Below are positions 26,001-31,320 of a DNA stretch of 64,000 nt, piece by piece. The notes under the pieces are model-generated. The model was not told the origin of the DNA and searched no databases. It was given only the letters and a program-made list of their open reading frames with translations. Source of the stretch: Crambe crambe (lineage: Eukaryota > Porifera > Demospongiae > Poecilosclerida > Crambeidae). A program made the position numbers and the translations under genes. The first letter of the stretch is position 1. The number at the start of each line of letters is the position of its first letter. The stretch is from the NCBI GenBank assembly GCA_963924555.1, contig OZ004598.1, positions 5,368,858 to 5,432,857 on the forward strand. Reading direction: 5' to 3'.

Positions 26001-27529
26001 CAGGTACGTACTTAGACCATCCAATGGCAGGGCTCACAATAACAATTTCTTCATTGTCTGGCCTTTATCTGACCATTTTATAGCTATCAAAACTGCTATT
26101 AGAATAATCATGTCTGGACATAAAGAGTCATCTCCCACTGTATATAAATTGAATTGTGCTTGGTACTTTATCACTGCAGGCTACACCTGAGGGTGCAGCA
26201 GGAACTTGAGGGGAGCAGCGAGGGTGAAGGAGACTTGAACATCTGGTCAGAGTTCATATCAGATCTGTGGGAGAAACATCTTCCTCACTTGAGGGAGGAA
26301 CTCTATGGGGAAGGACTCTTTGTCTTCAATCCAAACACTGGTTGCTATGGTTTCCAAGAGGAGGAGGAAGAAGAAGGGGAAGAATTTGAGGATTGTGTGC
26401 TGACATCGTCCCTCCTTGGAGATGATGCTGATAAAGATGGTAGATACGAGAGAGAAGGGATGGAGTCTGTCTCTTACAGAATCCGAGACTCCCCAGGAAT
26501 GGAGGAGGGATCTTTTACCATCTTGTCTGAAGAAACACACACATTGGATTTGAATAGGAGTTCAAGTGATGAGGAAGAGGAGGGTATAGGGGGAGGAGCC
26601 TCCAGTACTGAGACCACACCTCTCCCTGGAGACTGTGAGTATTGTCTCATCTGTGTTGTTAGTTTTTAAAAAAATGATTTCTCTCTCTGCAGTGGAGGAT
26701 CGCTTGAAGAATGACCCTGAACTCAAGAAACGGGTTCTTTCTATAGTACAAAGTGGTACGTAACATGTGCAGTAAACTATGTCTAGTCAGTATATTATTG
26801 TAGTCTAGTCAGTATATTATTGTAGTAGTAATAATATGCTTTTTTTCCTCCTAAAAGATACAAGTCTAGAAGAACTGGCTCGAAAATTTTCAGCTCAGGA
26901 CGTATCTGACTTCCTGACAAAGATCCAGCTCCCTGAATATGCAGACAGTTTCTTGAGCTCGGACATCAGTGGAGAAATCCTCTTGGAGGCAGATGCAGAT
27001 ATTCTGAATGAACTGGGTGTGACCAGTCCTCTCCACCAGATGAAAATCATGGAGCTGTTCCGTAGGGAGCTCCAGGGGGAAATCCCAAGGTCAGTGACAT
27101 CAGGAGTTTACTGATTTCAAGGGAGTATACTGATATCAAGAGAGTGTACTGATTTCAAGAGAATATACTGATTTCAAGAGAGTATACTGATTTCAAGAGA
27201 ATACACTGAGAGTATACTGATTTCAAGTGTAGCTCCTGAAAAGTGAAAATAAAGTGCTTATATTGACACGATATTGAGGGCCAGTCTTTCATTTTCTCTC
27301 CTTCTCTTACAGGTATTCACGGGAGCACATGTCCAATTTCCTGCAGCAGTACAAGCTGGACAAGTATGGTCCCATGCTGGAAACCCACGGCATTGATGGA
27401 GACATGATCCTGGGGGTGGAGGAAAAACTGATGAAAAGCGTCCTCAGGGAAGTGGGCGTGACTTCACTTGTGGACAATTTGAAGATAAGGTCAAAGTACA
27501 AGACTTTTGTAAGTGATGACAATCCTTGA
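2970..27529 (+). CDS. Giant RNF213/mysterin-like AAA+ protein with C-terminal tandem SAM domains
   Basis: My splicing gives about 54 exons and 5,720 codons; human RNF213 has 5,207. The AAA core is clear. A P-loop spans the 10651/10713 splice (GAAGDGKTHYI, residue about 1890, AAA2). AAA3 has Walker A GETGVGKT (near 12541, residue about 2280) and Walker B VFLDEVNTSSCLG (13493). AAA4 has Walker A GAPGSSKT (near 14495, residue about 2770) and Walker B VVFMDEAG. Adjacent blocks such as AACNPHR and DYGSLDEHQERDYINAK agree with RNF213 as I remember it. Downstream shell-like exons retain the family's C-terminal layout (FQLGQLEEDMVTAFITGKP). I find no Cys/His cluster for the RING or the RZ finger of vertebrate RNF213. 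Two SAM domains close the protein (exons 26858-27089 and 27313-27529). My exon sum leaves one base over, so at least one junction is misplaced. Likely cytosolic; the ligase role is doubtful. Confidence 0.85.
4427..4457. repeat. (TG)n microsatellite
   Basis: An alternating TG run of about 30 bp in the intron after the exon ending at 4406. Confidence 0.9.
5573..5594 (+). repeat. Poly-C tract serving as 3' splice-site pyrimidine tract
   Basis: About 20 uninterrupted C residues sit directly before the AG of the exon beginning at 5595 in the RNF213-like gene. A pure C tract is an unusual polypyrimidine tract and a likely length-variable site. Confidence 0.85.
9262..9355. repeat. Intronic minisatellite, about 38-bp unit
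   Basis: Three imperfect copies of a unit built on AAGCCACACCCACT...TATA lie in the intron between exons ending at 9257 and starting at 9388. Confidence 0.7.
11793..12010. repeat. Dispersed repeat family, copy A (two units)
   Basis: Two units of a roughly 141-bp repeat fill the intron between exons ending at 11774 and starting at 12100. Each opens with CTAGGCAT..TGCTGAATGCTTAGA and contains a later ...GTGACCAATTT block. The same sequence recurs at 25420-25830 and 63105-63490. I do not recognise an element name; a non-autonomous transposon or intronic satellite would fit. Confidence 0.75.
13950..14001 (+). repeat. (GTTT)n / (TTTA)n microsatellite at a splice acceptor
   Basis: A tetranucleotide run that ends in the AG of the large exon starting at 14002, which encodes AAA4. 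Confidence 0.85.
15826..15905. repeat. Intronic minisatellite with CCACCTCTAATTAA unit
   Basis: Four imperfect copies of a unit of about 19 bp (CCACCTCTAATTAAAC) follow the donor of the exon ending at 15804 in the RNF213-like gene. Confidence 0.8.
16265..16385. repeat. (AAC)n-rich intronic repeat, duplicated
   Basis: Two blocks of interrupted AAC/AAT trinucleotides, each preceded by the same AACACAAGAAAAA...GCTCATTTTTGTATAAAC leader, show that a larger segment of about 90 bp was duplicated in tandem. Confidence 0.8.
16945..17032 (+). repeat. (CT)n tract of about 86 bp forming a splice acceptor
   Basis: An almost perfect CT dinucleotide run ends in CCAG at the start of the exon at 17033. It therefore acts as a greatly expanded polypyrimidine tract for an exon of the RNF213-like gene. 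Reading it as protein gives Ser-Leu or Arg-Glu repeats with no meaning. Confidence 0.95.
19694..19790. repeat. Intronic minisatellite with GTACAGAGTTCATG unit
   Basis: Five or so imperfect copies of a 15-21 bp unit containing GTACAGAG begin exactly at the donor of the exon ending at 19693. Confidence 0.75.
21095..21262 (+). repeat. C/T-only intronic tract (CCCTCCCTTCC type)
   Basis: Nearly 170 bp of pure pyrimidine on the sense strand, in the intron between exons ending at 21085 and starting at 21314. Similar tracts occur at 23020-23150 and 24685-24790 in the same gene. The template strand is correspondingly purine-only. Confidence 0.9.
23020..23152 (+). repeat. C/T-only intronic tract
   Basis: CCCCTCCC/CTTCCC repeats upstream of the exon starting at 23156 in the RNF213-like gene, on the sense strand, leading into its acceptor. 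Confidence 0.9.
23315..23455. repeat. Intronic minisatellite with GAGCATGCCCATAGGAA unit
   Basis: Four or five imperfect copies of a roughly 30-bp unit (TACACTGAGCATGCCCATAGGAA) fill the intron between exons ending at 23321 and starting at 23466. Confidence 0.8.
24685..24790 (+). repeat. C/T-rich intronic tract
   Basis: CCCTCCCTCC-type pyrimidine run before the exon starting at 24794 of the RNF213-like gene. Confidence 0.85.
25420..25830. repeat. Dispersed repeat family, copy B with inverted arrangement
   Basis: Units related to those at 11793-12010 and 63105-63490 fill an intron of the RNF213-like gene. Here one unit is inverted: the segment near 25519-25575 is close to the reverse complement of the segment near 25640-25700, which ends GTGAACCTAGGCATCATGCT. 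The locus could therefore fold as a long imperfect hairpin, as MITEs do. Confidence 0.7.
27108..27228. repeat. Minisatellite, about 21-bp unit, between the SAM exons
   Basis: At least five copies of AGAGAGTATACTGATTTCAAG with small changes occupy the intron separating the two SAM-domain exons. No coding function. Confidence 0.9.
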
Positions 27530-27907: not shown

Positions 27908-28533
27908 TCAAGGTGATGCATCCATGGAGATCCAGAGTGAGTGGACTATGTAAGTTCTTTCCTTGGCACGCCACTCTAGTTTTGTGTGTAGAGATGAAGA
28001 GTCGTCCATCTGGTCCTCTGCCACGTGTACACTGTATGTCCCAGGTTGGATGCACACTTGGAACACTGTGCAAACATTGTAGTGATGCCCTGATATACTG
28101 TCATGGTAACTGCATACACAAAAGAAAGATTCTAGATCAATGCTGGGGCATGGAGGTGGGAATATGGTTGCAGAGTGTTCTAGCTAAAATTCTTAACACT
28201 ATACAAAATGACTTCCAAAAGAGGACAACCTCTCTACAAAGGATGTTCCAGTATAATAACTAAGGGGAATTCCCTATGTAATGAAGGGAATTAGTCTATA
28301 CTGACCCTTCTGTATAGTTGGAGAGGGAGCAGGCGCACTCTATGTCTGGACTCAGTACTACTTCTCCACTGGAATGGGAATGGATTAGTTGTCCAGTCCG
28401 CATGACACTGGCCACCCGCGAGGCAGGGACGCAGGAGTAAGCCACATGCCAACGCTTGTAAAAGTGCTGAGCAAGAGTGTGGTTCTGGGAGCTGAAGAGG
28501 AGAAATCCGCAAGGGAGGGGGAAAGAGTAGAGG

Positions 28534-28568
<35 letters not shown>

Positions 28569-31320
28569 GAGTATAAATAGAGAGAATCATAGACCTGAAG
28601 ACTTAGGAGTGTGGTGGGCTATAACTAGCTGGTTAAAGTTCCTGGGCCTGTTCTGACCTATGCATGAACTGTGACCACCCCACTGGAAGAGTGAACTGTT
28701 GAGGAGGACTACCAGCCACTTGGATGGTGGGTTTCCCGGCAGCACACTTCTGGCAGTAACAGCTGGCATTCTCAGGCCCCAGGGCAATCATGGAGTACTT
28801 GACCACAAGGTGGTCCTTGAAACGCTCGCATGCTGCCAGGAAAGAACACACATGTTCCCGCTGAAGAGGAGTGGTACTTTTCAGAGACTTCTTCTGCAAA
28901 AGCTCAGAGAGTCTAGAAGCACGCAGACTCTCTTTCTTCAGGTTTTCGTCAAGGATTATTGCTTGCTCTCTCTCCCTTTCTATAGCGTCCTTCTCATCCC
29001 CTGAAGCAGAACTAGACTCAGGAGCACCTAAATATAAAATAGACAGTCATTTCACAAATAGAGCTTTATAGCTGTCTGGGGTTTTTCATTAATAAGTACA
29101 GCATGTGGATATCATTGGGTGACATGGCTACTTACTGGTGAGGGTGGGGAGTTTCAGAGGGGCACCGCCTATCTCATATACTGTGTCCAGTATGAACTGG
29201 AGGGAAGCTTTGTCCTTCAACATGGCTTCGGTCACACCTGCTTGTTCAAATAAGTACTGCCACTCTTCGCTCAAATTCTCCACCTATTAGGATCATGGTC
29301 AAGACAACACTGTAGACTGAAACCTTTCGCTCTTATTTAATGATCTTTTACCACCTCATAGTTAGTCTAAATCACCTTGATCATTCACATAACTGCTATG
29401 ACTTTCTCAATTCTTGCCTAATTTCAGATTTCAAACACCAGCAGAGAGAGTGGATGATCAGCTCTCTCATTAAACTGGAAATTTGGTTTAAGAATTGAGC
29501 AATTTTATAGCGAATGATCAAGATGTCAGGTGAGTACAAATAGACTGTCATAGTGATATGATACATGATAGCAATGGACTCACATTGAATTCAGATGCTT
29601 TGATTCTGTGAGTGATTCTACAAGTCATGGAAGGGTGGGGTGATGGAGTATGGATGAATGAAAAAAAAAACAAAAAAAAAACCATTGGAATGATCAATTT
29701 TAGTGGACTGTCAAGTTTGAAGCAGGCAGGACTAACTCTGTGGGCCTCTGCTTGACAGTGGCTTCGGACTCGGTCCTGTTTCTGAGTTTGATGCTCCTGT
29801 CCTGCTGGAGTTTCACCACTCTGTCTACTTGGTGGAGGAAACGGTCTTTTTCCTGCGTATCTCCGAACCCGATACAAGTGATTCCATGCTGCAATGTTAC
29901 GTAGTAAGTAAGTAGCTTACATAGTAAAAACACTTTGTTATATGAGATGCATTTCTGGTCATATTGTTTATTAATTTGACATAAAATGATACATCATACA
30001 TTTTTGACTTAGTGTACATGCAGTGGAACTTCCGAATTATGGGACTCAGCTTTTCGTAGAGGGCTAGGGGTTGTCCTCTTTTAGAGGTCATTATACAAAA
30101 GTTTGTGAAGAGGTTTATTTTGGAGTGTTCATTGGAGGCTCCACTGTATCACCATTCCTTAAAAGCCAACTAATTTGGTGACAAATCCTCTGGCCACAAT
30201 AATTGCCACTCCTTACATCAATGTCTCAGAAGCACTTAACTTCATAGCAAGTGCCACATATAAGGAAACAAGCAGAGTCAAAATACAGCAGGCATTTTAA
30301 ATGCAAACATATTTTCCAGTGTTGAACCAACATGGCAGAGTACACTTATTTCCAGACTTTTGTACTCTGCTTTACACCTTTAAACTCAGACATAACTCCG
30401 TCATATTCAAGGCTGAATAGCTAGCTAACAACATGTGTACCTCAGAGAGAAACGTCATTAGCAGATCACTTGGTAGATCATACTGGAACTGTTTCCCAAT
30501 CTTTTTTTCTCTTACTACTATCTTCTCCTGCAAAAAGAGAAAAGATAAACTGCATTTCTTTATTAAAATTGCATATTACTTCTTTGTCTACTATTTTGAT
30601 GAAGTATCCCTTTTGCTCCAAGTCTTTGACTATCACAATCCAGTAAGACTTGTCTTCTTGAGTTAGTTCCCCACCGAGATTCACTGAGCTGTGTGCGACA
30701 CAGATTGTCTGCAACCATTGTGGATAAGATTAATGATAATTGGTGTTGCCATAGCTAGCAATCTCGGCTCACCACACTACGTGTGCCAAAGAGAGAAGCA
30801 AAAATATCAGTCATTAAATCGGTATCATCACCGTCTTTAACTCGACTAACAACTGCAAATAGTGGAAAGAGTGAATAGCTATTATTATTAGCCTTATGGC
30901 TATTCACCGTTGCTGGATTTTCTGGTGGAATCCTCAACACATGGACATGCTTCTGTCAGCTGCACTTCATCATCTCCCACTTTCAAGTTATGTCCAGTGA
31001 GAAAGAGTACCAGTTCATCTAGGGAGCTGAATTCAACACTTTCCTCCTCTGGCAGACCTGTACTGTCCATAACATACTTTCCACCTTGCTGGAATACCAG
31101 AACATGGTACATCCGACCCTTGTATCTAAGAATATATTAGAAGATTTACAACACTATTCTATTATTAAAAGGGGGTGTGCCACGAATTAGCTTACTTTGC
31201 AGAAAGGACAAAATTTCCAGGTTGACTCTGACTGTCTCTGATGAGGAAAGATCCGTCACGCCTTTGATTGAGCAAAGAATTAGCCCTCCTGCTTGAAATA
31301 AGTCCGTGGTAGTAACTCAT
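27908..31320 (-). CDS. SH2 - WH1 - GBD - Neuralized4-type C-terminal domain chimeric protein
   Basis: Ten exons (31320-31196, 31125-30908, 30852-30773, 30708-30580, 30527-30441, 29888-29709, 29283-29136, 29027-28658, 28491-28306, 28109-27908) sum to exactly 575 codons. Residues 1-95 are an SH2 domain: YYHGLIS, phosphotyrosine-binding Arg in FLIRDS, then FSSLDELVLFL. Residues about 120-240 look like a WASP-type WH1/EVH1 domain (IFASLFG, KGYFIKIVD, ITCIGFGDTQEKDRFLHQV). Residues about 274-315 match the helical half of a WASP GBD (LFEQAGVTEAMLKD). A charged coiled coil follows (331-370). Residues 376-574 resemble the end of Neuralized-like 4: a Cys pair CYCQKC, LPVGWSQF, WHVAY, GEVVLSPDIE and FQVCIQPGTYSV. 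No proline-rich region, WH2 or VCA segment is present, so direct Arp2/3 activation is unlikely. Likely a phosphotyrosine-dependent adaptor (inference). Confidence 0.78.
28291..28305 (-). promoter_or_regulatory. Splice donor deciding the phase of the ninth exon
   Basis: Two GT sites lie close together after the ninth exon of the SH2-WH1 gene. Only GTCAGT after position 28306 leaves two bases and so keeps the reading frame into the final exon that encodes FQVCIQPG. I used it for the gene model. Confidence 0.5.
28528..28571. repeat. (AG)n / poly-G tract in intron
   Basis: AG dinucleotides followed by a G run on the plus strand. On the coding minus strand this is a CT-rich polypyrimidine tract ahead of the exon starting at 28491. 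Confidence 0.85.

Follow-up and report, generated by a model that had tools for sequence, protein, structure and literature searches.

The window analysed here, a 64,000-nucleotide stretch of DNA from the sponge Crambe crambe, carries on its minus strand (31320..27908) a fusion gene whose product contains, in this order, an SH2 domain, a WASP-type WH1 domain, a GBD, a helix, a Cys motif and an ADP-ribosyltransferase (ART) domain of the NEURL4 type. Judged from its sequence, the gene is real and has relatives in several demosponges, and its product appears to be a previously undescribed adaptor for signalling that arose by domain shuffling. Literature searches on the domain combination and the gene names, in which subscription journals were mostly uncovered, found no published description of this protein. 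The anatomy of the gene is firm; its mechanism we infer.

The gene model is spliceable throughout, with 11 exons separated by ten introns that are all GT-AG and total about 1.7 kb. The reading frame runs from an ATG at 31320..31318 to a TGA ending at 27908 (577 codons including the stop) and encodes 576 amino acids. An earlier note on this DNA had placed one gene at 27908..31320, and the ends of the model agree exactly; the figures given there, ten exons and 575 codons, have to be revised. Exon 7 is only 34 bp long. The five motifs quoted there (FLIRDS, KGYFIKIVD, LFEQAGVTEAMLKD, LPVGWSQF and WHVAY) are all present in the product, and the order SH2-WH1-GBD-NEURL4 C-terminus proposed there holds according to Pfam, the GBD profile and a comparison with the sponge's own NEURL4. 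As the Crambe crambe gene model was built from genomic sequence alone, two or three adjacent genes might have been read as one, an explanation made scarcely credible by ten aligning proteins in other records. Eight of these relatives span SH2 to the C-terminal region, the order that the earlier note had proposed seeking in other sponges. Moreover, four of the ten sit on contigs of 1761-2136 bp yet encode 520-604 amino acids; these contigs are too short for introns like those of the Crambe crambe gene and are therefore best read as spliced RNA.

The search that yielded the relatives returned 11 proteins, of which ten cover 82-99% of the query at 40-57% identity; the eleventh (P0011) is a moth phosphatase with 10% query coverage. 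The protein of Halichondria panicea is 57% identical over 99% of the query, in an alignment that spans the exon junctions. Conservation among the relatives is poor in the SH2-WH1 linker, around junction 2|3. Named relatives are H. panicea LOC135341052, Amphimedon queenslandica LOC100631926 and a Geodia barretti protein, whose database labels read uncharacterized or corkscrew phosphatase fragment; Em0018g935a is, to judge by its prefix, presumably a gene model of Ephydatia muelleri. The four relatives with known source represent four demosponge orders, all within the Heteroscleromorpha. Among the eight relatives with the long span, P0009 has a broken ART stretch and P0002 lacks the ART end; P0007 has no SH2 and P0010 lacks most of it. 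Two further protein searches gave 33 and 20 hits that resemble, by score and identity, relatives or fragments of the fusion gene. The 20-hit search returned no WASP or NEURL4 either, and given this blind spot, confinement of the fusion gene to demosponges does not follow.

For the alignments, P0009 (Geodia), out of frame in its ART stretch, was kept in A1 only and excluded from pairwise identities, and P0002 was excluded from A2 and A4 for its missing ART end. The window's own protein was excluded from A3 and A6, which served structure prediction. A5 held nine of the 11 rows (minus P0005 and P0009), A8 and A9 eight (minus P0005, P0007 and P0009), and A7 five rows plus the NEURL4 tail. Across the eight rows with all domains, mean pairwise identity was 64.4% for the GBD, 57.7% for SH2, 55.5% for WH1, 53.7% for the Cys region, 52.7% for the helix and 49.3% for ART. 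Within the Crambe crambe genome, a search with the C-terminal part found this locus only, and one with the GBD found only the fusion locus and WASP. This is weak evidence for a single copy, because the C-terminal search also missed the genome's own NEURL4 tail, and a divergent second copy could escape.

The SH2 domain is encoded by exons 1 (31320..31196) and 2 (31125..30908), includes the FLIRDS motif and occupies residues 3-81 (PF00017, 4.7e-15). Its best PDB sequence match is SHP2 (3.9e-14), the FLVR arginine is present in all nine sequences that have that stretch, and an SH2 fold was seen in a Foldseek search with a model of the H. panicea relative. Phosphotyrosine binding is predicted. The fusion protein shares an SH2 with an FLVR-type arginine with adaptors and phosphatases such as SHP2, ABL and GRB2, but in contrast to them no SH3, kinase or phosphatase domain was found in it by Pfam. 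Elsewhere in the genome SH2 matches are densely clustered (C5:1417826-1656255, C9:1487746-1614367 and C12:1751539-1843203), as if by tandem duplication. Three weak SH2-like matches on the minus strand at G000:C14:3697948-3702252 show an exact spacing of 2058 bases in an open frame of 9513 amino acids, either a giant repeat protein or a repeat array.

Exons 3 (30852..30773), 4 (30708..30580), 5 (30527..30441) and 6 (29888..29737) encode the WASP-type WH1/EVH1 domain (PF00568, 2.1e-9, residues 139-236). With a profile made from eight WH1 sequences, four sequences of N-WASP or WASP were matched at E 0.001 or better, and below E 0.3 nothing matched except WASP/N-WASP chains (best 4.8e-10). The fold search with the H. 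panicea model had N-WASP EVH1-WIP and ENAH EVH1 among its hits. Another WH1 place in the genome, at C19:1385532, was first taken for WASP and turned out to be what we take to be Homer-like.

The GBD (residues about 270-316) is encoded by exons 7 (29617..29584) and 8 (29283..29136). Its profile matched the N-WASP GBD (2lnh, 5.8e-8, profile positions 12-54), followed by WASP 2k42 and 1ej5, and the match is limited to profile positions 12-55, the part after the CRIB; profile searches thus recovered both WH1 and GBD, for which the earlier note had advised looking in this way. Two CRIB motif patterns had no match in any of the 11 sequences (the product and its ten relatives). The genome's own WASP has a canonical CRIB, situated 5' of an intron that it shares with the fusion gene's 7|8. 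By these comparisons, what is retained of the GBD is the helical part only, the one predicted to bind a C-helix. A Rho-GTPase-regulated effector, in which the GBD binds Cdc42/Rac and links them to phosphotyrosine input, could be imagined from a helical part so clearly derived from WASP; it is nevertheless highly unlikely, since the CRIB is missing from all sequences, the genome's own WASP keeps it on the 5' side of the shared intron, and the match starts only after it. The GBD naming in the earlier note consequently stands for the WASP-type helical part and not for the CRIB part, and the coupling of tyrosine kinase and Rho-GTPase signals that it envisaged loses its basis, Rho-GTPase input being unlikely. 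Its claim that the proline-rich and VCA parts are absent agrees with the data: no run of four prolines occurs in any of the 11 sequences, no WH2 is among the Pfam families listed up to E 1, and the C-terminus is formed by the ART domain, not by a VCA.

The GBD is followed in exon 9 (29027..28658) by a long conserved helix (residues about 342-374), a Cys motif (C...CYCxxC), which is predicted to bind zinc, and an LPxGW motif; exons 10 (28491..28306) and 11 (28109..27908, with the stop) encode the NEURL4-type, PARP-like ART domain. A profile of the C-terminal part scored 59.0 bits against the tail of the sponge's own NEURL4, the best of 500 shuffles reaching 5.0, and the Cys and LPxGW motifs of exon 9 are as in that tail. 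A PARP/ART fold was recognized by a fold search on the model of P0012, a sponge relative and not the window's own protein. Pfam gave nothing useful on C-terminal slices of nine members (best 0.082), and a sequence search of the PDB with the C-terminal part found no ART, the matches being two smoothelin chains (E 0.57 and 0.79); the ART identity is based on the comparison with the own NEURL4, the fold search and published work. No Neuralized (NHR) repeats are among the Pfam families listed up to E 1. The NEURL4-like naming given in the earlier note holds, with the correction that the domain is a PARP-fold ADP-ribosyltransferase domain without the HGT histidine. The own NEURL4 (ARTD17) C-terminal region (G000:C18:6024082-6022493, minus strand) shares with the fusion protein the Cys motif, an LPxGW-type motif, the ART domain and two introns, whereas the fusion protein lacks the Neuralized domain, the HGT histidine and the loop that follows. 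In the own NEURL4 gene the Neuralized domain is split over exons that score 1.5e-21 when joined, and a whole-genome Neuralized search with five exon matches missed this split-exon gene. The tail keeps its HGT and LEW motifs and makes a natural control for the degenerate copy in the fusion gene.

The HG(S/T) motif is absent from all 11 sequences. Where the own NEURL4 reads AYHGT, the fusion gene reads AYSCV, with His replaced by Ser, and the histidine column holds S, C or T in the ten readable sequences (P0009 is out of frame there). Compared with the own NEURL4, the loop that follows the His motif also lacks a segment of about 25 residues. Because of these two losses the ART domain is probably a pseudo-enzyme, predicted to be inactive, and the replacement of the catalytic histidine in 10/10 readable sequences makes ADP-ribosylation an unlikely output. 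PARP13 is an inactive pseudo-PARP. Like TASOR and LRRC9, described as pseudo-PARPs in print (PMC10450202, PMC7955679), the fusion protein combines an ART fold with the lack of the usual catalytic set; it differs in its other domain partners and in that its ART is NEURL4-type, not PARP1-type. A phosphotyrosine-directed ADP-ribosyltransferase that works with unusual residues would fit the PARP fold, the ART-triad Glu that this gene and its H. panicea relative retain, and a report that NEURL4 is required for mitochondrial ADP-ribosylation (PMC9149570). It is very improbable in view of the lost histidine and loop; the Glu is kept in only these two of nine readable rows and replaced by other residues in seven (P0002 being gapped there and P0009 uncounted), and one published table gives the ART activity of human NEURL4 itself as not determined (PMC7955679).

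The origin of the gene can be read from its introns. Exons 1 to 5 of the own WASP and the final five exons of the own NEURL4 were aligned with the fusion protein and nine relatives, blind to introns. Three of the four WASP introns examined (LFDLS|TKAMV, SFPGD|KFTVG and TGAFD|SSNIA) fall in the same column and phase (0) as 4|5, 5|6 and 7|8, the fourth, in a linker, being unmatched. Two of the four NEURL4 introns examined (FKLGL|K and FSEAY|P) share column and phase (2) with 9|10 and 10|11, and one of the two unmatched lies in the lost loop. Introns 2|3, 3|4, 6|7 and 8|9 of the fusion gene have no partner in the WASP or NEURL4 exons compared. Chance alone would yield about 0.05 matches (8 introns against 10, over 1731 nt), and five were observed. 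Introns coinciding in both position and phase show that the fusion gene derives from pieces of WASP and NEURL4 genes, and they support exon shuffling as the route. The fusion protein is like WASP/N-WASP (own gene, G000:C19:102027-103866) in its WH1, its helical GBD and three introns, and unlike it in having an N-terminal SH2 and a NEURL4-type tail and in lacking CRIB, polyproline and VCA. The intron within the SH2 domain (phase 2, in LSAK) is also present in further SH2 exons of this genome, some of which we take to be GRB2-like, and is therefore not specific.

As to function, we tentatively favour a phosphotyrosine-targeted, non-nucleating and non-catalytic demosponge adaptor that may compete with WASP or restrain it locally. 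The SH2 would carry the fusion protein to phosphotyrosine sites, putatively in the cytoplasm, where the WASP-derived WH1 and helical GBD would be offered without an Arp2/3- or actin-binding tail. In trans, the GBD would most likely bind an amphipathic helix, for which the C-helix of true WASP is the natural candidate, and the fusion protein would then compete with WASP or hold it back at sites of tyrosine kinase activity. The Cys/ART region at the C-terminus would act as a non-catalytic pseudo-PARP binding module. Without CRIB, VCA or ART histidine, no WASP-like reading of Cdc42, actin nucleation or ADP-ribose transfer is expected. According to published work, the C-helix is held by the core of the WASP GBD, which mimics can occupy in trans (PMC7973643), and N-WASP V418fs, which lacks the VCA, is dominant negative for nuclear F-actin (PMC11720165). 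A phosphotyrosine-targeted WASP competitor is therefore the most economical guess.

Several observations weigh against it, including the triad Glu kept in two rows. The tryptophan before the VKD strand of EVH1, which has a role in WIP binding and is found in N-WASP and the own WASP, is unmatched in the alignment column where it would be expected; WIP-like ligands may therefore not bind, and WH1 may have a different role. The post-GBD helix is unlike the WASP C region and not clearly amphipathic, its hydrophobic moment being reached by 24 to 285 of 500 shuffles (eight sequences; in one the best window lies beyond the helix), and an internal autoinhibited state is for this reason unsupported. 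As a candidate relic of the WASP C region the helix was rejected (hhalign probability against the own WASP VCA, 0.24%). Helix binding by the GBD, like any partner, is a prediction, and confidence in the full-length structure modelled for the H. panicea relative is low (pLDDT 66.4, pTM 0.38). In addition, a shorter VCA-less truncation of N-WASP, R128*, is reported to promote nuclear actin, not to block it (PMC11720165).

With three parental ligand features altered (CRIB, EVH1 tryptophan and ART histidine), WH1 and GBD might instead keep only their folds and bind new partners in a multi-protein docking scaffold unrelated to actin, one conceivable setting being innate or allorecognition signalling of sponges. 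This possibility ranks close behind the WASP competitor; the strong conservation of WH1 (55.5%) and GBD (64.4%), as if the old interface mattered, speaks against it. An extension of the WASP competitor to an undescribed demosponge family whose phosphotyrosine-directed, VCA-less WASP half would inhibit WASP in trans and whose retired PARP domain would sense or read NAD+/ADP-ribose is unlikely; if true, tyrosine kinase, actin and ADP-ribose signals would converge in one protein.

Both neighbours of the fusion gene lie on the plus strand. One, reaching to about 27520, has two SAM-domain stretches (SAM_1, 7.9e-21) at 26860-27510 of the window. The other (31640 to about 34000) encodes a 5'-nucleotidase C-terminal domain (3.6e-22), with no Pfam match for the first of its exon pieces. 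It is arranged head to head with the fusion gene, the distance from its beginning to the fusion start codon being about 320 bp.

The fusion gene offers a clean gene-structure case of domain shuffling in which both parent genes are still marked by introns. Two natural variants, a WASP half without VCA and a pseudo-ART of the NEURL4 type, are coupled in it to a phosphotyrosine reader. We know of no actin switch-off of this kind at tyrosine-kinase sites in other animals; if the product does restrain WASP, sponges would switch off actin assembly at the sites where tyrosine kinases act.
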